Origin: Streptomyces roseoverticillatus | Lineage (GTDB): Bacteria > Actinomycetota > Actinomycetes > Streptomycetales > Streptomycetaceae | Direction of reading: 5' to 3' | Assembly (NCBI RefSeq): GCF_000719265.1 | Contig: NZ_JOFL01000001.1 | Coordinates: 186,001-250,000, forward strand | DNA length: 64,000 nucleotides | Shown here: positions 821-42,138 of the stretch, in pieces | How positions within the stretch are numbered: position 1 is the stretch's first letter | Layout of the letters: each line of letters opens with the position of its first letter | The notes under the pieces: generated by a model | Databases searched by the model: none | Seen by the model: the letters and a program-made list of their open reading frames with translations, nothing else | Told to the model about the DNA's origin: nothing | Translations under genes and position numbers: made by a program

Positions 821-2065
821 TCAGTGCGCCGGCAGGTGCCGGGCGAAGAACGAGCGCAGGTGGTGGCGCACCGCAGGCACCGCTGCGGCCGGGTCCGCCG
901 TCCCGACCATCTTCGCGCGGTCGGCGGCCGTCACCAGCCCGGCGGTCTGCAACTGCGGCACCAGGGCCGCGTAGTCGGTGAACACCCAGTGCGCGGCGTG
1001 GTCGAGCTGCCGGCGGCAGGCGCGTCCCCGCGAGTGGGCGAGCACCGCGGGCCACGAGCGCTCCAGGGCCTTGCGGTCGCGGAAGCCGTCCGTGCCCAGC
1101 AGGAGCAGCGGCCGGGCGGCTCCGTACCGGGCGACCGGGTACAGCTCGCCCTGGCCGCCGGGCGTATCGGGAGCCCGGTCGAGGTAGCCCTCCAGGTCGG
1201 CAGCCGCACTGATGCGCCGGTCCTCGTACATCGCCAGGGCCGCCGCGGTGCCGCCCGCCGAGTGGCCGTAGACGCCGATGCTCCGCAGGTCCAGCGCCCG
1301 GCCGAGGTGTTCCGGCAGGGGGCGGCCCGCCGCGTCCGGGTTCCGCCCGGCGGCCAGTTCCTCCAGCCGGCCGATCACGAACCGGAGGTCGGCGACGCGG
1401 GTGTCGATCAGGGTGCGGAAGAGGCCCGGGTCCGTCCTCGGGTCGTAGCGCAGCACCGTCGGGCGGACGGTGTCCCGGCCGGTCATGGCGACGGGGAACT
1501 CCACTTCGCAGGCGTCGCCCGGGTGGTCGACGGTCACCACCACATAGCCGTGGCTCGCCAGTTCCTCCGCGGGGCCGGTGCCCATGGTGCGCGCGTCGCC
1601 GCCTCCCGGGCTGTACAGCAGGACGGGCCGCCGGCGCGCGGCGTCCGCGGGGGCGCCCGTGTACGAATGGGTGGTGGTCGCCGCCCAGTTCACGCCCGAG
1701 GCGGGCAGCTCCGGGTGGCTCCTGCGGCCGTCCGCGCCGAAGTCCGCGGCGGCGCCCGCGGTCATCTGCGGTGCGCGGCGGCAGCCGCGTACGGTGCGGG
1801 CCGGGTAGAACACGGACGCCATCACCTCGCGGACGGGGATCTCCGGCTCCAGCGGGTCGCGCCGGGAGCGGTCGACGAGGTAGAGGGTGGTGACCCCGGT
1901 CCAGTACGGGCCCGTCGGCGCCGGCAGCCGCAACGTGATGCCGTCCGCGGTCCCCCGCGCCTGCGCGGCGGCCGGGGTGGCGGTGCCGCCCGCGAGCAGC
2001 ACCCCCGCAGTGGCCGCCAGGGCCGACTTGGTGACGGCCCGTCGGCCGACGTGACGATGAAGCAT
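821..2065 (-). CDS. Secreted alpha/beta hydrolase, PAF-acetylhydrolase/lipase-like
   Basis: The 414-residue product begins with a twin-Arg-like export signal (GRRAVTKSALAATAGVLLAGG, cleavage probably after the Ala-rich stretch near 35). The nucleophile elbow is GHSAGG (Ser about 269), an acid candidate lies in AADLEG (about 290), and the catalytic His is in the LDHAAHWVF segment (about 350). This arrangement fits the PAF-AH p/II-like or dienelactone-type secreted esterases of actinomycetes. GGGGAG stands just upstream of the ATG. The gene is convergent with the LuxR remnant (14-bp gap) and divergent from the next regulator. The substrate is unknown, probably a short-chain ester or phospholipid. 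Confidence 0.85.
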   Translation of the reverse strand: MLHRHVGRRAVTKSALAATAGVLLAGGTATPAAAQARGTADGITLRLPAPTGPYWTGVTTLYLVDRSRRDPLEPEIPVREVMASVFYPARTVRGCRRAPQMTAGAAADFGADGRRSHPELPASGVNWAATTTHSYTGAPADAARRRPVLLYSPGGGDARTMGTGPAEELASHGYVVVTVDHPGDACEVEFPVAMTGRDTVRPTVLRYDPRTDPGLFRTLIDTRVADLRFVIGRLEELAAGRNPDAAGRPLPEHLGRALDLRSIGVYGHSAGGTAAALAMYEDRRISAAADLEGYLDRAPDTPGGQGELYPVARYGAARPLLLLGTDGFRDRKALERSWPAVLAHSRGRACRRQLDHAAHWVFTDYAALVPQLQTAGLVTAADRAKMVGTADPAAAVPAVRHHLRSFFARHLPAH

Positions 2066-2223
2066 GGCGCTCCCCTTACCTGCGGTGATGTAGGTCCTTG
2101 TGCCACCCGGCGGCCGTTTGAGTGAATGCCGTGGGCACGGCCTGCATGCTGGTGCCCGGCGGCGGCCCCGGGCGAAGGTTCAGGCCCTGCCCGAAACGAT
2201 GGCGCGGTGCCGGCGGGAGTGCA

Positions 2224-3207
2224 GTGATACGGATCCGGTTCTCGGCCGCGGACTTCGCGCGCGTGAGGTTCGCGCCGCGGCCCGTGCCGCTGCAGGCGCT
2301 CAACACGGCCTTCATGATGCTGTTCCGCGGCGACGACCACCTGCTCTTCGGCCGCTGGCGGCAACGGCTGCTCCGTAACCTGCCGGCGGCTGTGGAGCCC
2401 CTGGGCGACCTGGTCACCGCGGCCGGAGCCCCGCTCTTCCTCGACGAGTTCGGCGAGGAGTCCGGCGATGCACCGGAGCACGGCCTGGACGCCGTGCGGG
2501 CCGCTCCCCCGGGCCTGGTCCGTACGGAGCTGGAGCGCGTGTACGCCGGCCATCCGGCGCCGCCCCCGCCGTGGGTCCGCGACCTGCACCGGGGTGATGC
2601 CGGTGCCTGGCAGGTCCTCCGGCGCGCCCAGCACGCGGCGTTCGAGACGGCCGTGCGGCCGGTGTGGCCCCTCGTGCAGGACCTGCACCGGGCGGAGTTC
2701 ACCCGCCACGCCCTGGCCGTGGCCGAGCACGGAGTCGGCGCGGCCCTCGCCGCGCTCGTGCCCGGCGGCCGGCTGCGGGGGGACGTCTGGGAGCTCCCGG
2801 CGCCCGGCGAGCGGGACCTCGCGCTGCGCGGCCGGGGCGTGCTGCTCCTGCCCGCGTTCCAGTGGACCGGCCATCCGCTCGTCGCCGACCTGCCCGGCCG
2901 GCCCCTCGTCCTGAGCTACGCGGCCGGCCCGGGCCTGCCCCTCTCCCCAAAGGGAGCGGGCGGCAGGGAAGGGTCCCTGGCCGAGGTGCTCGGGCGGACC
3001 CGCGTCGACGTGCTGGCCGTGCTCGCGCAGGAGCACACCACGAGCGGCCTGGCCCGGCGGCTCGGCGTCAGCAACGCCACCGCTTCCGCCCACGCCGCCG
3101 CGCTGCGCGGCGCGGGACTGGTCACCTCGGCGCGCGCGGGACGAGCGGTGCTGCACCGGCGCACGGACCTGGGGAGCCTGCTGCTGCGGGGGCGGGAGCA
3201 CGGCTGA
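2224..3207 (+). CDS. ArsR-type winged-helix regulator with long N-terminal domain
   Basis: I chose GTG at 2224 because GGGAG lies a few bases upstream and the protein then opens with IRIRFSAADFARVRFAPRP, a start typical of this streptomycete family; an upstream in-frame ATG at 2122 would add 34 unlikely residues. The 327-residue protein has a long N-terminal region of unknown role and a C-terminal winged helix at about 255-320 (VDVLAVLAQEHTTSGLARRL, then VSNATASAHAAALRGAGLV). It probably acts as a cytoplasmic DNA-binding regulator, possibly of the divergent hydrolase. The effector is unknown and no metal-binding Cys motif is seen. Confidence 0.82.
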   Translation: MIRIRFSAADFARVRFAPRPVPLQALNTAFMMLFRGDDHLLFGRWRQRLLRNLPAAVEPLGDLVTAAGAPLFLDEFGEESGDAPEHGLDAVRAAPPGLVRTELERVYAGHPAPPPPWVRDLHRGDAGAWQVLRRAQHAAFETAVRPVWPLVQDLHRAEFTRHALAVAEHGVGAALAALVPGGRLRGDVWELPAPGERDLALRGRGVLLLPAFQWTGHPLVADLPGRPLVLSYAAGPGLPLSPKGAGGREGSLAEVLGRTRVDVLAVLAQEHTTSGLARRLGVSNATASAHAAALRGAGLVTSARAGRAVLHRRTDLGSLLLRGREHG

Positions 3208-3399
3208 CGCCGGCGCGGGAGCGCACGGAGCGGACGGAGCGGACGGTCAGCAGCGGGACGCCTGAAGAGCAGCTTGCCGCGAAGGGGCCGTATGCGCCGC
3301 GGGGCGGGCACCGCCGGCCGCTGCCGGGCTGGCGGGCGAGTGACCGGCGACGGCGCGACCGTCTCTGCCCGGCCGGGCGCCGGCGCGCGCCCTCTTCCC

Positions 3400-4674
3400 C
3401 TACGGCTGCGGCGAGCGCGCGTCGTAGCGCGCGAAGTTGCGCCACTGGACGGCGATGAGCGCGGTCGCCGCCAGGCAGGCGAGCCCGCCGCCGACGACCG
3501 CCCAGGACGGTGAGGCGAGGTCCGCGGCGGATCCCGCGAGGAAGTCGCCCAGGCGCGGCCCGCCCGCTACCACGACGATGAAGACGCCCTGGAGCCGGCC
3601 CCGCATGTCGTCGGGGGTGGCCGCCTGGAGCATGGTGGTGCGGAAGACCGCCGAGATGCTGTCGGCGCATCCGGCGAGCCCGAGGAAGAGCAGGCCGAGC
3701 CAGAGGTTGCGGCTCAGCCCGAAGACGGTGACGGCGGCGCCCCAGCCGCCGACGGAGAGCAGCACGGCGAGCCCGTGCCGGTGGATGCGGCCGAGCCAGC
3801 CGGAGAACAGCCCGCCCAGCACCGCCCCGACGGCGGGCGCGGCGACCAGCAGGCCGACGGTCTTGGTGTCCCCGCCGTACCAGAGCCCGGCTATGGCCGG
3901 GAAGAGCGCCCTGGGCTGGGCCAGGACCATGGCGGCCAGGTCGGCGAGGAAGGTGATGCGCAGGTTGGGGCGGGTGACGAGGAAGCGCAGGCCGCCCCGG
4001 ACGGAGGCGCGTCCCTTCCCCGGCCGGCCGTCGCTCTTCTCGGGGCGCATGGAGGGCAGGCGCCACATCGCGTACAGGGCGAAGGCGAACGAGACCACGT
4101 CGACCAGGTAGGCGGCCTGGAAGCCCCAGAGGCCGACGACGGCGCCGCCGAGCATGGGGCCGCCCATGAGCCCGAGGTTCGTGGTCAGGGAGGTCAGGGC
4201 GTTCGCCGCGGGAAGCTGCTCCGGGGACAGGAGCTTGGGGATCATCGCGCTGCGGGCCGGGCTGTTCATGGCGAAGCAGACCGACTGCAGGGCGACGACC
4301 GTGTAGAGCAGCCACACCTGCCGCAGGTCGAGCAGCGCGGCGGCGGCCAGCACGACGGACAGCAGTGTGGCGCCGGAGGCGCTGGCCAGGCCGAGGGTCC
4401 GGCGGTCGACGGTGTCGGCGACGGCTCCGCCGTACAGGCCGGCGGCTATCAGCGGGACGAGGGAGCACAGGCCGACCAGGCCCACGGAGAACGTGGAGCC
4501 GGTGATCGCGTAGACCTGCAGGGAGACCGCGAGGGCGGTCATCTGCTGGCCCACCCAGGACACGGTGTTCCCGGCCCACAGGCGGCGGAAGTCCGCGGAG
4601 CGGCGCAGAGGGGTGATGTCGGCGAGGTAGCGGGTGCGCTGCGCGGGCCGGGCGGCGGGGGGAGCTTCGGGCAC
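3400..4674 (-). CDS. MFS transporter, EntS/MFS_3-like exporter
   Basis: The 424-residue protein has about 12 hydrophobic segments and the MFS loop motif in GGAVADTVDRRTLGL. The sequence fits the EntS/MefA-like drug or siderophore exporter branch. I chose GTG at 4674 (VPEAPPAARPAQR) because GGAG lies about seven bases upstream; a longer frame to 4743 is Arg-rich and unlikely. It lies 88 bp downstream of an XRE-cupin regulator on the same strand, so the two are probably cotranscribed, with the regulator controlling export. The substrate cannot be inferred. Confidence 0.86.
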   Translation of the reverse strand: MPEAPPAARPAQRTRYLADITPLRRSADFRRLWAGNTVSWVGQQMTALAVSLQVYAITGSTFSVGLVGLCSLVPLIAAGLYGGAVADTVDRRTLGLASASGATLLSVVLAAAALLDLRQVWLLYTVVALQSVCFAMNSPARSAMIPKLLSPEQLPAANALTSLTTNLGLMGGPMLGGAVVGLWGFQAAYLVDVVSFAFALYAMWRLPSMRPEKSDGRPGKGRASVRGGLRFLVTRPNLRITFLADLAAMVLAQPRALFPAIAGLWYGGDTKTVGLLVAAPAVGAVLGGLFSGWLGRIHRHGLAVLLSVGGWGAAVTVFGLSRNLWLGLLFLGLAGCADSISAVFRTTMLQAATPDDMRGRLQGVFIVVVAGGPRLGDFLAGSAADLASPSWAVVGGGLACLAATALIAVQWRNFARYDARSPQP

Positions 4675-24610: not shown

Positions 24611-25639
24611 ATGAAGGCACTCGTCAAGCACAAGGCCGAGCCCGGGCTGTGGCTCATGGACGTCCCGGAGCCGGAGTACGGCCCTGGCGACGTCATGATC
24701 AAGGTGCTGCGCACCGGCATCTGCGGCACCGACCTGCACATCCGCTCCTGGGACGGCTGGGCCCAGGGCGCGGTGCGCACCCCGCTGGTGCTCGGCCACG
24801 AGTTCGTGGGCGAGGTCGCGGCCGTCGGCGCGGACGTCCGCGACATCGAGGTCGGCGACCTGGTCAGCGGCGAGGGCCACCTGGTCTGCGGCAAGTGCCG
24901 CAACTGCCTGGCGGGCCGCCGCCACCTGTGCCGCAGCACGGTCGGCCTCGGCGTGGGCCGCGACGGCGCGTTCGCCGAGTACGTCGTGATGCCCTCCTCC
25001 AACGTGTGGGTGCACCGCACGAAGGTCGACCTCGACGTCGCCGCGATCTTCGACCCGTTCGGCAATGCCGTGCACACCGCGCTCTCCTTCCCGCTCGTCG
25101 GCGAGGACGTGCTGATCACGGGCGCGGGCCCGATCGGCATCATGGCCGTGGCCGTCGCCAAGCACGCCGGCGCCCGCAACGTCGTCATCACCGACGTCAG
25201 CGAGCCGCGCCTGGAGATCGCCCGCAAGGCCGGCGCGACCCTGGCCCTCAACGTCTCCGGCGCCTCGATCGCGGACGCGCAGCGCACGCTGGGCCTGCGC
25301 GAGGGCTTCGACATCGGCCTGGAGATGTCGGGCCGGCCCGAGGCCATGCGCGACATGATCGCGAACATGACGCACGGCGGCCGGATCGCCATGCTGGGCC
25401 TGCCGGCCCAGGAGTTCCCCGTCGACTGGGCGAAGGTCGTCACCTCGATGATCACTGTCAAGGGGATCTACGGCCGGGAGATGTACGAGACCTGGTACGC
25501 GATGACGGTGCTGCTGGAGGCCGGCCTCGACCTCAGCCCGGTGATCACGGGCAAGTACTCGTACAAGGACTTCGACGCGGCCTTCGACGAGGCCGCCACC
25601 GCCCGCAGCGGCAAGATCATCCTCGACTGGACCGCCTGA
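24611..25639 (+). CDS. tdh: L-threonine 3-dehydrogenase
   Basis: The 342-residue zinc medium-chain dehydrogenase has the catalytic zinc ligands Cys38 (GICGTDLH) and His63/Glu64 (GHEFVGE). The structural zinc site is [15 protein letters not shown], and the NAD motif is [14 protein letters not shown]. It oxidises L-threonine to 2-amino-3-ketobutyrate. The kbl gene follows 79 bp downstream, the classic pair converting threonine to glycine and acetyl-CoA. Upstream, GTGAAGT and ACTTCAC (24497-24544) form a spaced inverted repeat that could be a regulatory site. Confidence 0.95.
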
Positions 25640-33907: not shown

Positions 33908-33953
33908 GCGGGTTCATGGCAGGGCGACGGACGTCTTCCGGCCATGAACCCGC
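33908..33953. terminator. 13-bp stem-loop between convergent genes
   Basis: GCGGGTTCATGGC and GCCATGAACCCGC form a perfect 13-bp stem. Its right arm touches the stop codon of the DUF4291 3' fragment, so it can serve as terminator for both convergent genes. Confidence 0.7.
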
Positions 33954-34402
33954 TACGGGCGCCCGGCGCCGCCGGCCGGCTCGTAGGGGCGTTCCTGCGG
34001 CAGTCTGCTGCGGGCCTCGTCCAGGTCGCCCGCGATGACCAGGCCGTGGATCTCGCGGGCCAGCGGGGTCACATCCGTGATGGAGACCGTCCACTCATCG
34101 GCGTACCGGCGCGCCGCCTCGCCCGCGAGACCGAGCTGCAGAGAGCGGTGGGGCAGGGCCTGCAAGTGCAGGTCGCGTTCGGGGTCCCACTGCACGCGGG
34201 CCGGTGACGCCTTCAATTCGCGCCGCCAGGCGGCCTGGTCGGCGTGGGCGTCCCGGTCGTAGTGAGACAGACAGGCATTGGCCAGAGCCCAGTCGAAGCC
34301 GGCGCGGTCGATCTCGATCGCGAGGACGCACTCCTGATCGGCCTTGGTACCCCACCCACAGCGGTACATCATCCAGAGGAAGGAGGGCTTGATCCAAGTC
34401 AA
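33953..34402 (-). pseudogene. DUF4291 gene, C-terminal fragment split by the integrative element
   Basis: From the TGG codon at 34396 this reads WIKPSFLWMMYRCGWGTK, the family's most conserved block, and continues to residue 149 of the fragment. The first two codons (TTG ACT) belong to the element. The missing N-terminal 56 codons lie 7.57 kb away at 42138-41968. Rejoined, the protein would be about 203 residues, normal for DUF4291. A short product could start at the TTG, but it would lack the N-terminal strand set. Confidence 0.9.
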
Positions 34403-34416
34403 GCGGTGTTCGTAGG
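34376..34416. other. attL of the serine-integrase element
   Basis: The left half (to 34394) is DUF4291 coding sequence, the core dinucleotide CA is at 34395-34396, and the right half AGTCAAGCGGTGTTCGTAGG (34397-34416) is an attP arm. Its reverse complement matches the arm at the other end in 18 of 20 bases. Confidence 0.9.
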
Positions 34417-34445
34417 CCTTTTAGGCTTAGCTGTATTCACGCAGG

Positions 34446-35195
34446 TCAGGGCACAGCTATCGCGTCCAGGTGAGCGCGTGCCGAACGGGAGAAGCTGTCC
34501 AAGAGCGCCTTCCCCTTGGCAGCAGTGGCCAGCGACGGCTGGCCGATGATGCCGTTGGCGGTGTAGCCCGCCATGCCCAGGGTGAGCAAGTGAGGGCGCT
34601 TGGGGGCTGAATGGTCGTCTTGCTCGAAGCCCTCGTGTACGAGATGCGGCGCGCCGTGGAGGAGTAGAGAGACCTCGAACTCCCCGCCGTGCATGTCCTC
34701 GGCGCTGCTGCTCTCCAGCTCGGCCTCGGCGCGGGCCCGGGCCCGGTCTTCACTGACGGGGAAGAGGGCGACGCGGGGGCCGCTGACGTTGAGTTCCTGG
34801 ACGACGTTCGACAGGACGTAGTTGCCGCCGTGGCCGTTGACGATGATCAGCCCGGGGTGCCCCGATGCTTCGAGCGATCTCCAGATGTCGTTGACCATGG
34901 CGTACAGCGTCCCAGCGCTGATGCTGACCGTGCCAGCCATCGGGGCGTGCTCGTGAGAACACGCCATAGTGATCGGCGGCAGCAGGAACAGGCCGTGGTC
35001 ATCGGCCAGCCGACGAGCGATCAGGCAGGCAATGACCGTGTCGGTGATCAGGGGCAAGTGATCGCCGTGTTGCTCGAAGCTCCCGATGGGTAGGACGGCG
35101 ACGGCGGGACCTCGGCGGCGCTCGTCGCCGGTGGTGGCTTGCGTGATCAATTCGTCCATGACCCCAGCATCTCTCATCACTTCCGGCCCAGTCAT
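34446..35195 (-). CDS. Creatininase-family amidohydrolase
   Basis: The 249-residue protein has the family's metal-site motifs: PIGSFEQHGDHLPLITDT (about 36-53), SHEHAPMAGTVSI, NGHGGNYVL and DMHGGEFEVSLLL. All expected Glu, His and Asp ligands look intact. Members include creatinine amidohydrolase and MftE-like peptidases, acting on cyclic amides or C-terminal peptides. Its ATG overlaps the stop of the XRE-TPR gene (ATGA), so the two are translationally coupled. No creatine-pathway or mycofactocin gene is nearby; its role in a mobile element is unknown. Confidence 0.88.
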   Translation of the reverse strand: MTGPEVMRDAGVMDELITQATTGDERRRGPAVAVLPIGSFEQHGDHLPLITDTVIACLIARRLADDHGLFLLPPITMACSHEHAPMAGTVSISAGTLYAMVNDIWRSLEASGHPGLIIVNGHGGNYVLSNVVQELNVSGPRVALFPVSEDRARARAEAELESSSAEDMHGGEFEVSLLLHGAPHLVHEGFEQDDHSAPKRPHLLTLGMAGYTANGIIGQPSLATAAKGKALLDSFSRSARAHLDAIAVP

Positions 35196-36475
35196 GCCGC
35201 GAACTGGTCACGAACGGCCGCAAAGCGTTCAAGAAAGGCCGCTACGGTCGGTAGTCGCCGCTCTCCTGTCAGGGAGTCCGCCACTGCCGAGAGCACGCCG
35301 AATGTACGGGCGGACCCTGTGTGCCGGACGACCCCGAGTGACTTCGTCGCGGCCTCGGCCCCACGCTCCAACTCGCCGGCGCGGACGTAAGCGCGAGCGA
35401 GCCGCGCGAGATAGACGCCGCGGTCGTTGCGGTAGACCTGCGGCAACTCTGCCAAGTGCCCTTCGAACAGCTCGATTGCCTGTTGAGGCTTGCCGAGATC
35501 GATCCAGCAGTTCGCGCGCTGCATCTCGATGTACGTCGGTGTGCAGTACGAGGTGTCGAGCCCGGAAACCGTCCCGGCCGCGGCGGGATCAGCCACGAGT
35601 GCACGTGCTTCGTCGAACCTGGCCAGCGCCGCCTTCGGGTTCCGCATCAACGCGTACCCCTGGGCCTCCTGCTGAGCGGCAAGCGCCACGATCTGAGGCG
35701 AGAGTCCGGGCAGGCGCTGCGCCGCCTTGGCCAGCCCGACCGCCCTGTCTGCGCTGGCGCGCGCAGTGGCCTGGTTGCTCTTGCGGAAGAGAATGTACGA
35801 CTGCATGTGATCGTCTGCGGCCTCTTGTGCCCACTCCATCGCGCGGTCGGACCAGAGCGCCGCGCGCCGGAAATCGCCCAGGTCCTGGTACAGCCATCCG
35901 ACGAATTCGGCAACTCGTCCGCCGGTCTGCAGAAGCGCTTCCCGCGGCGCCCCGGTGTTGCCGCTTTCCAGCAGCCTCGTGATGGTCTGAGCGTGCTGCA
36001 CGACGGCAGGGATGGTGTGACGGGCACCGAAAAAGTTCGAGCTCTTGTAGTGCTGGGGCAGTTGGCTCTCGATGAGCGTGGCAACGAACTCGGGGTCGGT
36101 GAGATCGTCGTCCGGCCCAGTGTCGGCCAAGCAACCGAACGGGTCCACGTCGCCAGACGCCACCGGAACGGCCACCGGGGCATCATCTGCCTCCCAGCCA
36201 CGGCGGGCGAGGCCGAGCATGCTGCCCGGGATCCGCAGGCCATCGGCCACGCGCTCAACGACGCTGATGTTGGTGATCTCGCGGTTCCCCTTGATGATCT
36301 CTCCGACAGCACTCGGCGTCATCTCCACGCACCGCGCGAGGCGCGAAGGGTAGAGACCTGCCCGCCTCGCCAACTGGAAGATCGCGGAGAAGTCGCGGAC
36401 GCGACACGCCTCGATCACCGCTTCTTCTCGCAGCAAGCGTGCCGGGAAGCCTTGGTGGGGCTCGGACTTGGGCAT
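35192..36475 (-). CDS. XRE-family regulator with TPR-like repeats
   Basis: The 427-residue protein starts MPKSEPHQGFPARLL. It has an N-terminal helix-turn-helix (about 25-80; LYPSRLARCVEMTPSAVGEI, then IKGNREITNISVVERVADGL) and a long C-terminal run of TPR-type helices (about 150-420). This architecture is common in streptomycete regulators that sense a peptide or small ligand through the TPR. A perfect palindrome lies 64 bp upstream of its start, between it and the divergent HATPase gene, and is the likely operator. It leads the creatininase gene. Confidence 0.86.
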   Translation of the reverse strand: MPKSEPHQGFPARLLREEAVIEACRVRDFSAIFQLARRAGLYPSRLARCVEMTPSAVGEIIKGNREITNISVVERVADGLRIPGSMLGLARRGWEADDAPVAVPVASGDVDPFGCLADTGPDDDLTDPEFVATLIESQLPQHYKSSNFFGARHTIPAVVQHAQTITRLLESGNTGAPREALLQTGGRVAEFVGWLYQDLGDFRRAALWSDRAMEWAQEAADDHMQSYILFRKSNQATARASADRAVGLAKAAQRLPGLSPQIVALAAQQEAQGYALMRNPKAALARFDEARALVADPAAAGTVSGLDTSYCTPTYIEMQRANCWIDLGKPQQAIELFEGHLAELPQVYRNDRGVYLARLARAYVRAGELERGAEAATKSLGVVRHTGSARTFGVLSAVADSLTGERRLPTVAAFLERFAAVRDQFAA

Positions 36476-36538
36476 GAGCGGGGCTCCGGGGAGGGACGGA
36501 ATCCGCGGTGGAGGCCATGCGGTCGGGTTACCGGCGAT

Positions 36539-36557
36539 GTTACCCATCATGGGTAAC
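36539..36557. promoter_or_regulatory. Palindromic operator between the XRE-TPR and HATPase genes
   Basis: GTTACCCAT and ATGGGTAAC form a perfect 9-bp inverted repeat separated by one base. It abuts the first possible ATG (36559) of the HATPase gene, so binding would block that gene's initiation or leader. The match to the divergent layout suggests the XRE-TPR protein binds here. Confidence 0.65.
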
Positions 36558-36558
36558 C

Positions 36559-37065
36559 ATGCCGGGCTCGTTTCTCGAACTGTCACCCGTGATGCTGCTT
36601 GGCATGGAGAGACGACAGGAAGACGCGAACGGCGAAGAGGTGAAGCGGCGTTGGCCCCGACACCCGCGCTGCGTCGGCCTGGCGCGCGCCGAGTTGCGCA
36701 GAGCACTTGAGGCCTGGGGGCTGACATCGATCGAGGACGAGGCGCTCCTGGTCCTCTCCGAGCTGCTGACCAATGCCGTGGTGCATGCGCGCGTCTCACC
36801 TGGCCGGGAGATCGAGACCTGGTTCCGGCTGGAGGCGGGCGCTCTCCGCATCAGGGTCGATGACGCCTGCGAGGGGTGGCCTTCCGCCCGCCCCCGGAGC
36901 GTTGAGGGAGGCCGGGGACTTTCTCTGGTGGCCGCGCTGTCGACCTCGTGGGGTGTGAGCAACCGGGTGGGCGTCGGCAAATCAGTTTGGGCGGTGCTGG
37001 CAGTACCGGCCGTGAAGGGAGATCACAGTGGCACGCATCAGTGCGTCACAACTGCAGCACGGTGA
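36559..37065 (+). CDS. Anti-sigma-factor-type ATP-binding protein (HATPase_c_2)
   Basis: The protein is 168 residues from the ATG at 36559. The family usually begins nearer ATG 36604 (MERRQEDANGEEV), which would place the operator upstream of the leader. The N-box is LVLSELLTNAVVHARV, the Asp motif is RIRVDDACEGWP and the G-box is GRGLSLVAALSTSWGV. These are features of RsbW-like serine kinase/anti-sigma proteins, abundant and mostly uncharacterised in Streptomyces. It overlaps the next gene by 38 bp. The partner sigma factor or antagonist is not in the element. Confidence 0.85.
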   Translation: MPGSFLELSPVMLLGMERRQEDANGEEVKRRWPRHPRCVGLARAELRRALEAWGLTSIEDEALLVLSELLTNAVVHARVSPGREIETWFRLEAGALRIRVDDACEGWPSARPRSVEGGRGLSLVAALSTSWGVSNRVGVGKSVWAVLAVPAVKGDHSGTHQCVTTAAR

Positions 37066-37231
37066 CATGGTGAGCATCCGCGGCGACATCCGCGAGATCA
37101 AGGCCATCCGCAACATCGAGACGTCGCACGGTACAGAGCTGGTGCTGGTCTTCAAGACCGGATCATCCTTGCGTCTGCAGCCGACGGACGAAGTGCAGAC
37201 GTCGCTGCACTGGCGTCAGCTGAGGCGATGA
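37028..37231 (+). CDS. Small (67-residue) protein of unknown function
   Basis: GTG at 37028 has AGGGAGA upstream and lies inside the 3' end of the HATPase gene. The product (MARISASQLQHGDMVSIRGD, then IREIKAIRN...) looks like a small all-beta, SH3/KOW-like barrel. Translational overlap on both sides (ATGA with the next gene) supports a real gene. Its size would suit an excision factor or DNA-binding accessory, but no motif proves it. Confidence 0.7.
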   Translation: MARISASQLQHGDMVSIRGDIREIKAIRNIETSHGTELVLVFKTGSSLRLQPTDEVQTSLHWRQLRR

Positions 37232-37392
37232 CCGCGGCCCGGCGGCGCATCTCGGATCAGAGGCTGGACGAGGCGCTGAAAGGCCTGCGTCTGCGCCTGC
37301 CACCGGTGGCGCCGGAGAAGAGCGAAGCTGTGTTGCGACGGATCCTTGATCGTGTAGCGCGGCGGCAACGGGAAGGGCAGGCGCCCCCATAG
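37228..37392 (+). CDS. Small (54-residue) basic helical protein
   Basis: ATG at 37228 overlaps the previous stop (ATGA). The product MTAARRRISDQRLDEALKGL, then RLRLPPVAPEKSEAVLRRIL, is strongly basic and predicted helical, ending at TAG 37390-37392. Coupling to two upstream genes is the main evidence that it is expressed. I do not recognise the family; a recombination directionality factor is one possibility. Confidence 0.6.
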   Translation: MTAARRRISDQRLDEALKGLRLRLPPVAPEKSEAVLRRILDRVARRQREGQAPP

Positions 37393-37755
37393 ACGGGGCG
37401 GGGGCTGCCCCGCCTGGGAGGGTCCGGCAGCCTTCGCCCTCTGATTCCCTCGGGGGCAGCGCTCGCAGCGGTCACTGTTCCGCTGCTGTGAGCGCTGCGG
37501 ATCCCCGCACTCCGAGGGGAGGCGGCGTACTGAAGATCCGCCGCCTGCGGCCCTGCTCCACTCACGGGACTGATCGGAGCAGGGCCGCGCACAACAACCG
37601 CACACGCAAAACCGGACCACCCCTGAGCCTGGAAGCAAGAGAGGTGGTCCGGCAGGAGACCTTCAAGATCCCCGGTGCCGATGGTACCGGGGTGGTCGCC
37701 GTGTGTCAGTGCGATGAACCCCACGTGGTGCCAGTCCAGTTCGCAATGAAGGGAT
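37393..37755 (+). terminator. Non-coding stretch with two perfect stem-loops (37547-37588, 37612-37652)
   Basis: No gene is supported here. GCGGCCCTGCTCC/GGAGCAGGGCCGC gives a perfect 13-bp stem and CCGGACCACC/GGTGGTCCGG a perfect 10-bp stem. Together they likely terminate the HATPase operon. The second hairpin could also act in the leader of the next gene. Confidence 0.55.
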
Positions 37756-38034
37756 ATGGGGCAGATGGAGTTCGACGTCGAGGAGTTCGACCCGGACGAC
37801 GTGACGTGGGTCCGCGGGGTGAACTACGTAGCAGGCTGGCGTGAGGCGACGAACGCGGCCTCGGACTTAGTGGCGGCGCTGACCGCGGCTGGGGTGCCGC
37901 TGGACGGTGCGAGGGCTACGGCGCGCTCGGCGGCGGACGGGTCGGGGGTGGTGCGCCTGATGTGGCCGGTTGAGACCGTGCGGGCGGTGGCGGAGCTGGT
38001 ACGCAGGAACGGCCCTGGCTCGCTGGCTGCGTGA
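37756..38034 (+). CDS. Small acidic protein of unknown function (TTA codon)
   Basis: The 92-residue product starts MGQMEFDVEEFDPDDVTWVR; the second ATG, three codons on, is an alternative start. It is predicted helical (about 25-90) with no known motif. A TTA leucine codon occurs at 37867-37869, so translation may depend on the bldA tRNA or simply reflect foreign origin. It stands between two terminator hairpins and the CPCC gene. Confidence 0.65.
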   Translation: MGQMEFDVEEFDPDDVTWVRGVNYVAGWREATNAASDLVAALTAAGVPLDGARATARSAADGSGVVRLMWPVETVRAVAELVRRNGPGSLAA

Positions 38035-38092
38035 CCTACGGGGGAGTCCGGTAGGTCACCCATGACCCGCCGGACTGTTCCAGTGGGGTTTC

Positions 38093-38374
38093 ATGCACTA
38101 TGGCCAGGTGACTGTGCCATTCATCAACAACCACGGCGTTCCGGAGGACGGCTCCTACGCCTGTCCCTGCTGCTTCCACATGACCCTCAGGGAGCGTGGC
38201 GGCTTCGAGATGTGCTACGTCTGCTCGTGGGAAGACGACGGCCAGGACGACCACGATGCCGCGATTGTCAAAGGCGGACCGAACGGTGACCACAGTCTGA
38301 CCGAGGCGCGCCGCCACTTCCAACTCCGGCAAACCTGCGACAGCCGTTGCTCTCCCGTACGCCAACCCGGGTAG
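38093..38374 (+). CDS. CPCC-family cysteine-rich protein
   Basis: The 93-residue product has the complete Cys_rich_CPCC signature: SYACPCCFHMTLRERGGFEM, then CYVCSWEDDGQDD, and the GGPNGDHSLTEAR tail. The four clustered Cys suggest a zinc knuckle. The family is frequent near polymorphic-toxin and accessory loci and has been proposed to act as immunity proteins; no toxin is seen in this element. A GTG 15 bases into the gene is a possible alternative start. Confidence 0.82.
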   Translation: MHYGQVTVPFINNHGVPEDGSYACPCCFHMTLRERGGFEMCYVCSWEDDGQDDHDAAIVKGGPNGDHSLTEARRHFQLRQTCDSRCSPVRQPG

Positions 38375-39586
38375 GCCCCGGCCCGGAGTCAGCCGGACGC
38401 GCAACCACGATGGCGCCAAGGCGAGTGGAACGCCCATGACGGGCTCAGCCACGGCCGGAGGGCGCGGTCTCCTCACGCGCCCGCATCCGCGACGGCAGGA
38501 GTACGGCGCCCGGCCTCCCGGCCGCACGGCTCGACCACCGAAGCCGCGCCCCCCACCTCTCTCCCCCCGCTGCCAGCCTCCTTGACGCGCGCAACGACGA
38601 TGCCGTCGGACGGCGGATCACCCGCCACGTGTGCCGCCGTGCGTAACCGTGCCACCCGGAAGGCTGCAGTCAGCGGGGCCGGGGCGGTGGCGGATGGCTT
38701 AGCCGTGGCCCTTGTCGGCCTGTGCCACCGACAGTCAGCCACGATGGCGGGGCGGCCGGACGATCACCTGCCACGTGTGCACCTGCGCCATATTCCGGTC
38801 TCAGCCATACTGACATGGCTTTTCCCCACGTCACGGCCGGTACCACCCGAGACTCCGCGGCGATGCTGCTGTCCCCCTCCTGCAGACAGCGACGGTGCCG
38901 ACGCGCGAAGCGAGCCAAGCCACGACCGTCAGCCCCCGCCGGTCCGCGGTCGACGATCAGCCGGCTCCCGGTCTGCTCTTGCTGACCGCAACTGGTAACC
39001 GTCGGGAAGTCGAAGTGCCCGGCGTTGTACCGCCGGGGCCGGGGTGCTCGCCGTCTCGTCACGCCACGGCGGGCTCGTGGTGTGCGTGGGCGGTGGGGCG
39101 TCCGGCGGGACCGGCCGCCAGGCCGCAGCCCGCCGGGGCGCCCCGGCCGCCCGGCGCGCCAACGGCGCGCCCTTGAGGAAGTGAAGAAGATTTCGACCGA
39201 TTGCCGGTTCTCGGCATCCGCTCGGCTGCGACTCGTCGCCGCCTTTCTGTGACACACGAGGTACCCACGCTGGCACTCAGGTTGGGCTGCTGCTGGGGAA
39301 CAAGGTAATTCGTTGGTAGGCCGCCGCACCGCTTGAGAGCATGTAAGGACGAGTGACAACAGCGCCTGCGCCAGGCGCATCACCCGCTGACGAAAGTCAG
39401 CCGAAGAGATTGAGCTGCTTATGAACTGCCGCGCCCCACCACTCACGCGATGCCCTCGGAGGCCCGCCGATTGCTTGCCGAACTTGGCACCCCCTTCTCT
39501 CGAATAGTCACCCCCACCACCTCGACCAACGTCAACGTAGACGTCGCTTCCCGTCACGGCGCCGCCCCCATCGCGGGAGCCGCCTG
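38375..39586. other. 1.2-kb stretch of the element without a convincing gene
   Basis: No frame shows both a ribosome-binding site and codon bias. A GATCAC-CCACGTGTG segment occurs twice (near 38616 and 38761) followed by unrelated sequence, suggesting an old duplication. Small inverted repeats occur at 39150-39175 (GGCGCGCC twice) and near 39363-39380 (GCGCCT/AGGCGC). The part 39180-39480 is visibly less GC-rich. It may be decayed DNA or hold cis-acting sites or a non-coding RNA. Confidence 0.45.
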
Positions 39587-39727
39587 GTGACCAAGCCTGA
39601 CCGTGAGGCCGAACTGGCCCGGCACTTGGATCGTGTCTGCAGGAAGTTCTCTACGAAGATCAGCCCGGAGGCCGCAAGACGCCTGGCTCGGCTTCTGGAG
39701 CGTCAGCCCGGCGGGCAGATCGAATGA
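39587..39727 (+). CDS. Small (46-residue) protein of unknown function
   Basis: GTG at 39587 has GGGAG seven bases upstream and encodes MTKPDREAELARHLDRVCRK, then FSTKISPEAARRLARLLERQ, a charged helical peptide ending at TGA 39725-39727. It lies 63 bp before the next gene on the same strand. The good ribosome-binding site and amphipathic pattern support it; the function is unknown. Confidence 0.5.
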   Translation: MTKPDREAELARHLDRVCRKFSTKISPEAARRLARLLERQPGGQIE

Positions 39728-39790
39728 GGCAGCGCTCGCCTTGGTTACGCTGCACGGGCCGCCAACCAGGACTTCCAGCACGAGGACACG

Positions 39791-40372
39791 ATGTTCACCG
39801 AGTACCAGCAGGAACTGAGAGAGCGCTTCCTCTCCGCCCCCGTCGTGCCTGCGCCGGAACCCTGGCGTCCGGCCGCACGACTGATACCCGTCGGCGGCCT
39901 CCTCGGGGTCGGCTTCGCGCCTGACCCGGTCAGCGGGAAAGACCTGCTGATGGTCGTGTCCAGCAGCGGCCACGGCCTCTTCGACGCGTCCACGGGAGAG
40001 AAACTCGCACGGGACTACGATCCCGACCCGGAGACGTGCACGCCCACCGGGCCCGATCTGTCCTGCCCGGGGATCGGCCCCCTCGCGGGCACACAGGTTC
40101 GGATTGCCGGATTGTTCGGCGGAGGCTTGCATACCACCACGGATGACGGCTGGACTGTCCAGGTCTTCAGCCCCGACTGGCCCCACCACCGGGTACTGCT
40201 CTCAGCCGATGGCGGTCTCTGCCGCGGGCCCGCCGGGGAGAAGTGGTGGCACATCTTCCACGCCTCCTGGTCCGAACTGCGCGTCGCGGGATTCTCTCCG
40301 TCCGGACGTACCCTGGCCGTCGCCACCAGCAGTGACATCACGCTCCTGACCAGGTCCGAACCCAACCCCTGA
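39791..40372 (+). CDS. Conserved hypothetical protein of the element
   Basis: The 193-residue product starts MFTEYQQELRERFLSAPVVP. It is Trp/Gly-rich and apparently all-beta (GGLLGVGFAP, LLMVVSSSGHGLFDASTGEKL, LRVAGFSPSGRTLAVATSSD), resembling WD40/PQQ-like propeller blades in miniature. No signal peptide is present. I cannot assign a function. It is convergent with the integrase gene (50-bp gap). Confidence 0.75.
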   Translation: MFTEYQQELRERFLSAPVVPAPEPWRPAARLIPVGGLLGVGFAPDPVSGKDLLMVVSSSGHGLFDASTGEKLARDYDPDPETCTPTGPDLSCPGIGPLAGTQVRIAGLFGGGLHTTTDDGWTVQVFSPDWPHHRVLLSADGGLCRGPAGEKWWHIFHASWSELRVAGFSPSGRTLAVATSSDITLLTRSEPNP

Positions 40373-40422
40373 ACGGCATACGGAGGGGCCCAGGCCATGG
40401 CCCCTCCTTCGCAGTACCTTGG

Positions 40423-41940
40423 TCAGAGCCAGATCGGGCTCTGGTCGATGTCGATCCTGCCGTAGTCGAACTGGCGGCCCTTCTTCGCGGCTTCCTTGAT
40501 CTTCACGGCCTCGAAAAGGAACCGCATGACGGCATTCATGCGCTGGTGGTTCCCCGCCTTCTCCAGCGACTCCCAGCTCTCACGGGCGTCCGGACCGACG
40601 AGCCCCTTCAAGACGTCTGCGGCAGGGCGGACGATCATCTTGCGTTCGACCTCAGCGATGCGCGCCTCGACCTTCTTGCGCATCTCGCGGTACTCCCTCG
40701 TCCTGAGCTCTTGGCTCTCCCACATGTCCTTGAGGTCTTCGAGCTCTTGACGGTCGGCATCAATGGCGGCCTGGTCCTCTTCCGACAACGTTGACGGCGT
40801 GGGGGCGTTGGCGAGATCGAGGCGTTCCAGGAGATAGATCGCGGCCTTGGTCACGAAGTCCTCCAGGATGGGTGCGGACACGGCCCGGTTGCAGCGCGGG
40901 ACGTCAAGCCGGTGGGTGTGGCCGTTGCAGATGTACTTCCCTCCGGCTCCGCCCATGGGCTTGCTGCACCCCGTGCAGATGACGATGCCGCGCAGGAGAT
41001 AGAACCTGCCCGCTTGGTCACTGGTCTTCCGCGCCGCGGCCCGGTACGCACGGCGCTCCCTGACCTCCAACCACATGCCCCGGTCAATGATCGCGGGCCA
41101 TTCGCCATCGCCGATCTCCTCGCCCCGGAAGACACGAATGCCTGCGACATGGCGGTTGTCGAGGAGATCACGCACTCGGGGTGCGTTCCAGTAGCGCCCT
41201 TCCGCGGTCTTCTCACCACGGTCGTACAGGTCCTTGGCCAGTTGGACCGGGCTCTCCCCGTCCAAGTAGCGGGTGAAGACCTCCCGGACGATGGCGGCTT
41301 CCTCGGGGATGATCTCCATGCCGGTCTTGTCGTACCCGTACCGGCGCCTGCCCGTGTGCGGCCTTCCGTCCTTCGCCCGGTCCACCATGGCGTCGATCAG
41401 CCGGCGTGAGGTGTCATCGCTGGAGCGACAGGCGTGCGCCACCTCGATCCGGAGGAAGAACCGGTCGTCGGGGTCCGAGAGATCGCGCCGATTCGCCTGC
41501 CCGTGCAGGGTGATGTCGTGGTCATCGGCAATCTGCAACAGCTCTTCCAGATCGCGCGGCTGCCGCATCAGACGGTCAGGGTGGTACGTCAGGACGTGGC
41601 GCACGCGCCCTTTGCCCGCCTCGGCAAGCAGCGCCTCCCACCCCGGGCGTTTCCGCTTGCGCTGCCACGCAGACCTGTTGTTGTCCACGAACACTTGGTC
41701 CTCGGACACGGTGAGACCGAGACGCTCGGCAACTTCCCGGCAGATCCTCTCCTGGCGGTCCACCCCGGTCTGATCGTCGTCGTTCACGTGGGAGATCCGG
41801 CAGTAGATCGCCGCTGACTCTCCCTGCCAGTTGGCGCGACCGCCGACCTTCCTGGCCCGTTGCGCACCTGCTGTCTGACTTGCGCGCAGGGCCCTACGTA
41901 ACCGCGCGTCGGCCCTCTCGTCCTTCTCGTCTGCCGTCAT
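40423..41940 (-). CDS. int: Large serine recombinase (site-specific integrase)
   Basis: The 505-residue protein has a resolvase catalytic domain (about 42-190) with YCRIS (Arg48, nucleophile Ser50), a recombinase domain (about 205-300; GRRRYGYDKTG, then DLLDNRHVAGIRVF) and a zinc-ribbon (CTGCSKPMGG then CNGH and C, about 320-355). A coiled coil follows at about 385-430. This is the phiC31/TG1-type integrase architecture. An extra 40-residue basic N-terminus precedes the catalytic fold. It reads away from attR, eight bases inside the attP arm. It should integrate attP into attB inside the DUF4291 gene. Confidence 0.94.
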   Translation of the reverse strand: MTADEKDERADARLRRALRASQTAGAQRARKVGGRANWQGESAAIYCRISHVNDDDQTGVDRQERICREVAERLGLTVSEDQVFVDNNRSAWQRKRKRPGWEALLAEAGKGRVRHVLTYHPDRLMRQPRDLEELLQIADDHDITLHGQANRRDLSDPDDRFFLRIEVAHACRSSDDTSRRLIDAMVDRAKDGRPHTGRRRYGYDKTGMEIIPEEAAIVREVFTRYLDGESPVQLAKDLYDRGEKTAEGRYWNAPRVRDLLDNRHVAGIRVFRGEEIGDGEWPAIIDRGMWLEVRERRAYRAAARKTSDQAGRFYLLRGIVICTGCSKPMGGAGGKYICNGHTHRLDVPRCNRAVSAPILEDFVTKAAIYLLERLDLANAPTPSTLSEEDQAAIDADRQELEDLKDMWESQELRTREYREMRKKVEARIAEVERKMIVRPAADVLKGLVGPDARESWESLEKAGNHQRMNAVMRFLFEAVKIKEAAKKGRQFDYGRIDIDQSPIWL

Positions 41941-41948
41941 GGAAAGAG

Positions 41949-41990
41949 CCTATGAACACTGCTTGACTCACGTCATCCGGTCGCGCTTCC
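41949..41990. other. attR of the serine-integrase element
   Basis: The attP arm CCTATGAACACTGCTTGACT (41949-41968) is followed by core CA (41969-41970) and DUF4291 coding sequence (CGTCATCCGGTCGCGC, read on the opposite strand as RDRMT). With attL it defines both element ends. Confidence 0.9.
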
Positions 41991-42138
41991 ACGCAGGCGG
42001 GAAGCGGCCGTCCCGGGCAGCCGGCAGGCCGAGGCGGGGCGCGTACGCCTGGTAGACGGTGATGGTGGTGTCGGTGTACGCCGCCCGGATACGGCGGTAG
42101 GGCTCTTGCACGTCTTGCATGTCTTGCACGTCTTGCAT
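41968..42138 (-). pseudogene. DUF4291 gene, N-terminal fragment (56 codons)
   Basis: ATG at 42138 (or 42120) opens a frame reading EPYRRIRAAYTDTTITVYQA, then YAPRLG...WKRDRMT and a stop made by the attR junction (TGA 41970-41968). This is the expected N-terminus of DUF4291, up to the MT that precedes WIKPS. The first codons are a 9-bp tandem repeat (QDVQDMQDVQ), possibly a local expansion near the start. Confidence 0.88.

Follow-up and report, generated by a model that had tools for sequence, protein, structure and literature searches.

The split DUF4291 gene and the inserted element

In the 64,000-nt stretch of Streptomyces roseoverticillatus DNA analysed here (the window, to whose positions all coordinates refer), a gene of the DUF4291 family is cut into two parts by an element carrying a large serine recombinase. 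The locus is composed of the following features:

33953..34396, minus strand: remainder (3' part) of the interrupted DUF4291 gene, from W-I-K-P-S onward
34395..34396, minus strand: core of the left attachment (att) site, attL, most likely TG (CA on the plus strand), placed by the junction comparison, the attL signature and the dyad centre of attP
34397..41968, no strand: inserted element, 7,574 bp including one core copy, with a G+C content below that of most of the window
40423..41940, minus strand: large serine recombinase (int), 505 aa, with Resolvase and Recombinase domains and a weakly scoring zinc ribbon; it starts 30 bp away from the core
41968..42138, minus strand: first 56 codons (5' part) of the interrupted DUF4291 gene, up to R-D-R-M-T, followed by a TGA created by the junction
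41969..41970, minus strand: attR core, most likely TG (CA on the plus strand), placed by the junction comparison and the dyad centre of attP

The two parts occupy 42138-41968 and 34396-33953 on the same (minus) strand, and the plus-strand CA dinucleotides between them are located exactly at 34395-34396 and 41969-41970; the initial annotation had placed both the halves and the cut points at these positions. Rejoining the halves at the common TG gives 612 nt in frame, encoding 203 aa and a stop, which reproduces the restored frame and the protein length that had been predicted. The joined protein contains a full-length PF14124 domain, matching profile positions 2-180 of 180 (248 bits, E 5e-74, cut-off 27). 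Its alignment to DUF4291 homologues, proposed earlier as a check, runs across the junction, with 93% identity over 98% to the closest natural homologue. In addition, 7,733 of the 7,995 proteins scored match it at E ≤0.001.

The insertion point is situated within the R-M-T-W motif, invariant in 35 of 35 aligned natural DUF4291 proteins; the cut thus falls in the most conserved motif of the gene. Chance is no serious alternative for this pattern of splitting and rejoining. Cut after codon 56, the gene is presumably inactivated by the insertion, with loss of its function.

Attachment sites and crossover

On the minus strand, attR reads TGACG-TG-AGTCAAGC and attL reads TGACT-TG-GATCAAGC. The two sites share, in order, TGAC, then TG after one differing base, and TCAAGC after two further differing bases. 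The rejoined element ends (attP) form an inverted repeat matching at 22 of 30 positions, compared with 9 of 30 in the chromosomal site (attB), and TG is located at the dyad centre of attP. Across nine attP sites rebuilt from eight elements, the arms pair at 15-24 of 30 positions, against the 9 of 30 in the window's attB.

The base preceding TG was compared among intact genes (G 18, A 7, C 6; n = 31), attR sites (G 10, A 2, T 1; n = 13) and attL sites (G 13, A 12, C 2, T 1; n = 28). T, which precedes TG in the window's attL, is found at this position in 0 of 31 intact genes; it also precedes TG in the attR of one related element (L111). In L001, as in the window, attL and attR carry different bases ahead of TG. 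The TG core is favoured because TG is the dyad centre of attP and T precedes it in none of the intact genes, and a 2-bp TG core is likely, the base counts as a whole being indecisive. A crossover in TCAAGC would introduce a stop codon into the host gene. The crossover may have occurred inside TGAC, up to four bases upstream of TG, with an identical protein product. The earlier statement that both ends are resolved to the base calls for some care: the CA positions are as given, and the crossover probably took place at TG but may have fallen inside the upstream TGAC. A promoter split between the attP arms, noticed by eye, is not claimed, as TTGAC also belongs to the inverted repeat.

The integrase and its relatives at the same codon

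Both the Resolvase domain (PF00239, 70.9 bits) and the Recombinase domain (PF07508, 61 bits) of the integrase exceed their cut-offs; the zinc ribbon (PF13408) scores 23.8 bits, under its cut-off of 25.3. The protein matches an integrase family of PHROGs with 284 bits. A catalytic serine near the N terminus is a mark of serine integrases, and S50 in the sequence YCRIS is invariant in 16 of 16 aligned integrases.

Integrase relatives were compared at 80 genome loci, with DUF4291 sought beside int by tblastn. All nine loci with an integrase at least 77% identical (L001-L006, L012, L073 and L080) sit at the DUF4291 codon, and in eight of them the DUF4291 5' part ends at the core. The ninth, L005, contains a short decayed DUF4291 remnant, recognised by eye, and an intact DUF4291 6 kb away. 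The other 71 loci gave no DUF4291 match by tblastn, some of them holding little sequence upstream of int. An att-remnant pattern run over the 80 loci missed L073 and L005, both known from the other comparisons.

An integrase match at E ≤1e-100 is present in 30 of 392 genus genomes. A DUF4291 5' part is located beside int in G279, G094, G315 and G305 (81-84% identity), beside a truncated int in G085 and beside a broken one in G325. Three of these genomes (G315, G305 and G085) are L004, L012 and L073 again, and G325 is L163; such overlaps were not counted twice. In total, 12 elements with a 5' part, the window's included, and L005 make up the 13 examined at the DUF4291 site. In 12 of the 13, int starts 30-31 bp away from the core; the exception is L163, where the start is lost. 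Together with the two domains, this fixed arrangement at the same codon bears out the assignment to a serine-integrase element. Integrases of 66% identity or less show a similar layout in other genes (ten loci viewed by eye), where the truncated open reading frames (ORFs) beside L007 and L009/L010 resemble lon and an ABC-2 permease.

Recurrence of the landing site

Across the 392 genus genomes there are 28 places with the attL signature CTTGACNTGGATCAAGCC, spread over 24 genomes with the source genome among them, and none with the reversed control pattern. A DUF4291 C part is present at 24 of the 28 places and is at least 100 aa long in 17. Meanwhile, 119 of 150 genus genomes sampled contain a DUF4291 match, spanning at least 180 of the 203 residues in at least 101 of the 119, as counted from the matches listed. 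Among those matches, a piece ends or begins at residues 51-63 in at least 15 genomes (G000, G011, G013, G024, G063, G080, G085, G094, G101, G118, G125, G130, G139, G140 and G142); other genomes hold DUF4291 pieces with different ends. The DUF4291 codon is therefore a recurrent landing site rather than a single case, and the chromosomal attB inside a DUF4291 gene, as first annotated, is upheld by relatives broken at the same codon.

Two kinds of attR are observed. One is followed by int; the other has three extra bases and a different arm end. The second kind (GATCATCAAG or similar) was found by sequence at 12 sites (loci L112, L113, L117, L120, L121, L123, L198, L201, L203, L207 and L208), and no integrase of the window's family is present in the stretch fetched around each. 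The 5' parts of G063 and G024 have an end sequence that fits neither of these two regular attR forms.

More than one attL signature per genome exists in G279 (L202) and G305 (contigs C72, C199 and C223), and in L202 two C parts stand in tandem; such multiple signatures and tandem parts suggest an accretion of elements. L203 (G300) has, at 852-4542, another serine recombinase (28% identical) with RepSA next to it. The two lie directly downstream of the DUF4291 C part and may represent a neighbouring second element.

Uninterrupted genes in relatives, which had been proposed as a further check, are abundant, as the near-full-length matches above indicate. The closest relative identified, G060, was rejected as a clean empty site; the cargo of the element is still present there, beside an intact DUF4291 gene.

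Cargo and affinity to integrative and conjugative elements

In 1-kb windows the element has 65-69% G+C, and most other windows of the stretch have 70-79%. Besides int, it contains the following genes:

39791..40372, plus strand: 193-aa protein with no family match; relatives are also found close to other DUF4291 scars
38093..38374, plus strand: small Cys-rich CPCC protein (PF14206), from the Pfam scan
37756..38034, plus strand: 92-aa protein common to several related elements
37228..37392, plus strand: small ORF of 54 aa, from the ORF list and the comparison with related elements
37028..37231, plus strand: small ORF of 67 aa, from the same two sources
36508..37065, plus strand: HATPase_c_2 protein, an anti-sigma-like ATPase, from the Pfam scan
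35192..36475, minus strand: TPR-like regulator of the NsdA family, its helix-turn-helix match being weak, from the domain scan
34446..35195, minus strand: creatininase-family amidohydrolase (PF02633), from the domain scan

A PADLOC scan for defence systems covered one natural DUF4291 protein and eight proteins of the element, and no hit had an E value below 0.04.

In the 12 related elements at the DUF4291 site (the 13 minus the window's own), RepSA is present in nine (L002-L006, L012, L080, L111 and L160). An FtsK/SpoIIIE (TraB-like) protein is present in seven of the 12, always together with RepSA and absent from L002 and L006 of the nine. Both exceed their Pfam cut-offs (five RepSA proteins and three FtsK_SpoIIIE proteins scanned), and none of the same proteins attains the NCBIfam cut-offs for RepSA or TraB. 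Two GntR regulators were also tested and confirmed among the proteins of the related elements. No RepSA or FtsK/TraB-like match was found in L001, L073 and L163, of which L073 covers only about 2 kb past the int start.

The window itself gave no RepSA match at E 1e-5 with queries from five relatives and no FtsK/TraB-like match with queries from two. A general Pfam scan of nine element ORFs returned no RepAM or Prim-Pol, neither of which was sought by name. L001, from Streptomyces hiroshimensis, shares most of the cargo and the same flanks at approximately 83% DNA identity. Since the window has neither RepSA nor an FtsK/TraB-like gene, the most fitting reading of its element is an actinomycete integrative and conjugative element (AICE) in decay, with int, the two att sites and cargo retained; its putative descent is drawn from the gene content of its relatives. 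Between 38375 and 39790 the gene picker called no gene, and no RepSA or FtsK/TraB-like match is located there; this stretch is perhaps the decayed site of the lost replication and transfer genes.

Outside the element, a tRNA-Ile (gat) of 97 nt was called at 25508-25604, which seems long for a tRNA-Ile.

Proposed mechanism and alternative explanations

The split gene, the symmetry of the att arms and the shared target in relatives are directly observed, and they very probably reflect the insertion of an AICE-derived element into the DUF4291 attB by its own large serine recombinase, most likely at the TG core. The order of events given here is inferred, and int may be active and may need a directionality factor for excision. 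The element would have arrived as a circle, and its recombinase would have joined the near-palindromic attP to the attB in the most conserved motif of DUF4291. The crossover, most likely at the 2-bp TG core, would have cut the gene after codon 56. The ancestor was probably an AICE, as RepSA, and often also the FtsK/TraB-like protein, is encoded by relatives that have this int-att unit; the present copy would have kept int, both att sites and cargo such as the 193-aa protein, the NsdA-like regulator, the ATPase and the creatininase. Because int starts 30-31 bp from the core, it would be read from the side of the host gene once integrated; in the circle, it would be read from attP or from genes to the left of attP.

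Several points weigh against this scheme. Four of the 28 attL-signature places lack a DUF4291 C part, and none of the relatives examined offers a cleanly empty site between the same flanks. The crossover register is not decided by the counts of bases beside the core, which overlap. Owing to the three extra bases and the lack of an integrase of the window's family nearby, the work of the same enzyme is a candidate explanation for the second-kind attR scars. Furthermore, excision and the activity of int are predictions from an assembled sequence.

Large serine recombinases are common in actinophages, and the element could be a temperate phage or a phage remnant instead of an AICE derivative: 515 phage records match the integrase, and PHROGs families of integration or transcription regulation are hit by three of the element's proteins, namely the integrase, the NsdA-like regulator and the ATPase. 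All 515 matches are nevertheless below 60% identity (approximately 29% for the best among the matches listed), and the nine element proteins match no structural or packaging family of PHROGs at E 0.001. On these two grounds a phage origin was rejected as highly improbable, and the RepSA and FtsK/TraB-like genes of the related elements also argue against it. The gene might otherwise have been broken by transposition or rearrangement, with the integrase adjacent by chance, which would fit the half-genes found at several loci without an integrase of the window's family. Many genomes are broken at this one codon, their att arms match and the int start keeps a fixed distance from the break in 12 of 13 elements, so that this explanation is hardly credible. 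Integration by the element's own recombinase remains the preferred reading, and within it the C part might keep some DUF4291 function, being covered by an open frame of 149 aa that starts from the TTG at 34402. Such residual function is unlikely, as the lost 56 residues contain about 40 residues of the Pfam domain and the source genome has only the two DUF4291 pieces.

Spare DUF4291 copies and possibly restored genes

The most surprising part of the findings is the presence of extra DUF4291 copies. In seven genomes, G013 (L198), G024 (L116), G095 (L199), G125 (L117), G142 (L121), G300 (L203) and G322 (L207), a further near-full-length DUF4291 gene (186-197 codons, no internal stops) is located within the interrupted interval or beside the scar, and in each of the seven its orientation is opposite to that of the host pieces. 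In a tree of 60 rows with weak deep forks, the seven extra copies group as a single clade (97/91). Of the seven genomes, G142, G300 and G322 had their host C parts in the tree, and these fall outside that clade. A partial inverted copy in G325 stands outside the tree, and G226 contains a more complex DUF4291 set with one copy in direct orientation.

In G060 (L159, 4932-9350) and G119 (L128, 2560-7127), an intact DUF4291 gene is followed by cargo and then by a C-terminal remnant, and neither locus contains an integrase of the window's family. Beyond the element's left end in G060 comes the final part of the gene, which suggests that the element once lay within the gene. Both loci perhaps represent an immobilised element and a restored gene.

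As a tentative proposal, DUF4291 may be a contested landing site in Streptomyces. A family of integrase-less islands would bring to it a complete DUF4291 of their own, always inverted and from a single clade, to insure against the loss of the gene that their insertion destroys. The inversion would block deletion through homologous recombination with the host halves. With a directly oriented copy, such recombination may have yielded the intact gene, cargo and C-terminal remnant of G060 and G119.

For P0121, a natural DUF4291 homologue, the predicted fold resembles ADP-ribosyltransferase-like domains, RhsP2 being the best match, with one of five models confident; this fold search is informative for the listed families only. 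A DUF4291 profile search against solved structures gave no match, and a single repeat-protein match, considered as a relative of solved structure by sequence, was set aside as unconvincing. If the proposal is true and DUF4291 is ADP-ribosyltransferase-like, the islands would conserve an activity that the host needs.

Comparison with known systems

With its attP and attB predicted down to a few bases and its target gene matched in 119 of the 150 genus genomes sampled, the integrase could be added to the known integration tools. Insertions and repairs are naturally recorded in the DUF4291 scars, and with the inverted spare copies the idea that an island makes up for the gene it breaks can be put to the test. 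Attention is also drawn to DUF4291 itself, a widespread protein for which, supplementary tables aside, the literature searched contains no paper naming DUF4291 or PF14124.

Known large serine recombinases include those of the phiC31, Bxb1, phiBT1, TG1 and R4 type. These share with the present integrase the Resolvase and Recombinase domains, a near-symmetric attP, a short core and an attB in a protein-coding gene. The present system differs in its target, unnamed in the literature searched, and in the lack of any phage integrase more than 60% identical. In the accessible text of PMC8749152, PMC12924846, PMC12884075, PMC10083194, PMC9513070 and PMC3218068, DUF4291 is not named as a target. The initial remark that such a target was not known from described serine integrases agrees with the literature searched, and a prior listing in supplementary tables is possible. 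In particular, recombinases of several clusters are reported in PMC10083194 to share one coding target; the DUF4291 codon is likewise a conserved coding site and may already figure in the target tables of that work.

Compared with the AICEs with serine integrases surveyed in PMC3218068, the related elements are alike in int, RepSA and the FtsK/SpoIIIE protein, whereas the window's element differs in having no RepSA or FtsK/TraB-like match. It is similar to the decayed kind called DAICE in PMC9513070. The genomic islands of PMC12884075 that rebuild the gene they hit are alike in that the function of the target gene could be kept. Here, in contrast, a separate, inverted, near-full-length DUF4291 copy of another clade is carried by integrase-less relatives. 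The DUF4291 integration site is itself of a known kind; its recurrence and the inverted spare copies lift it above routine annotation.

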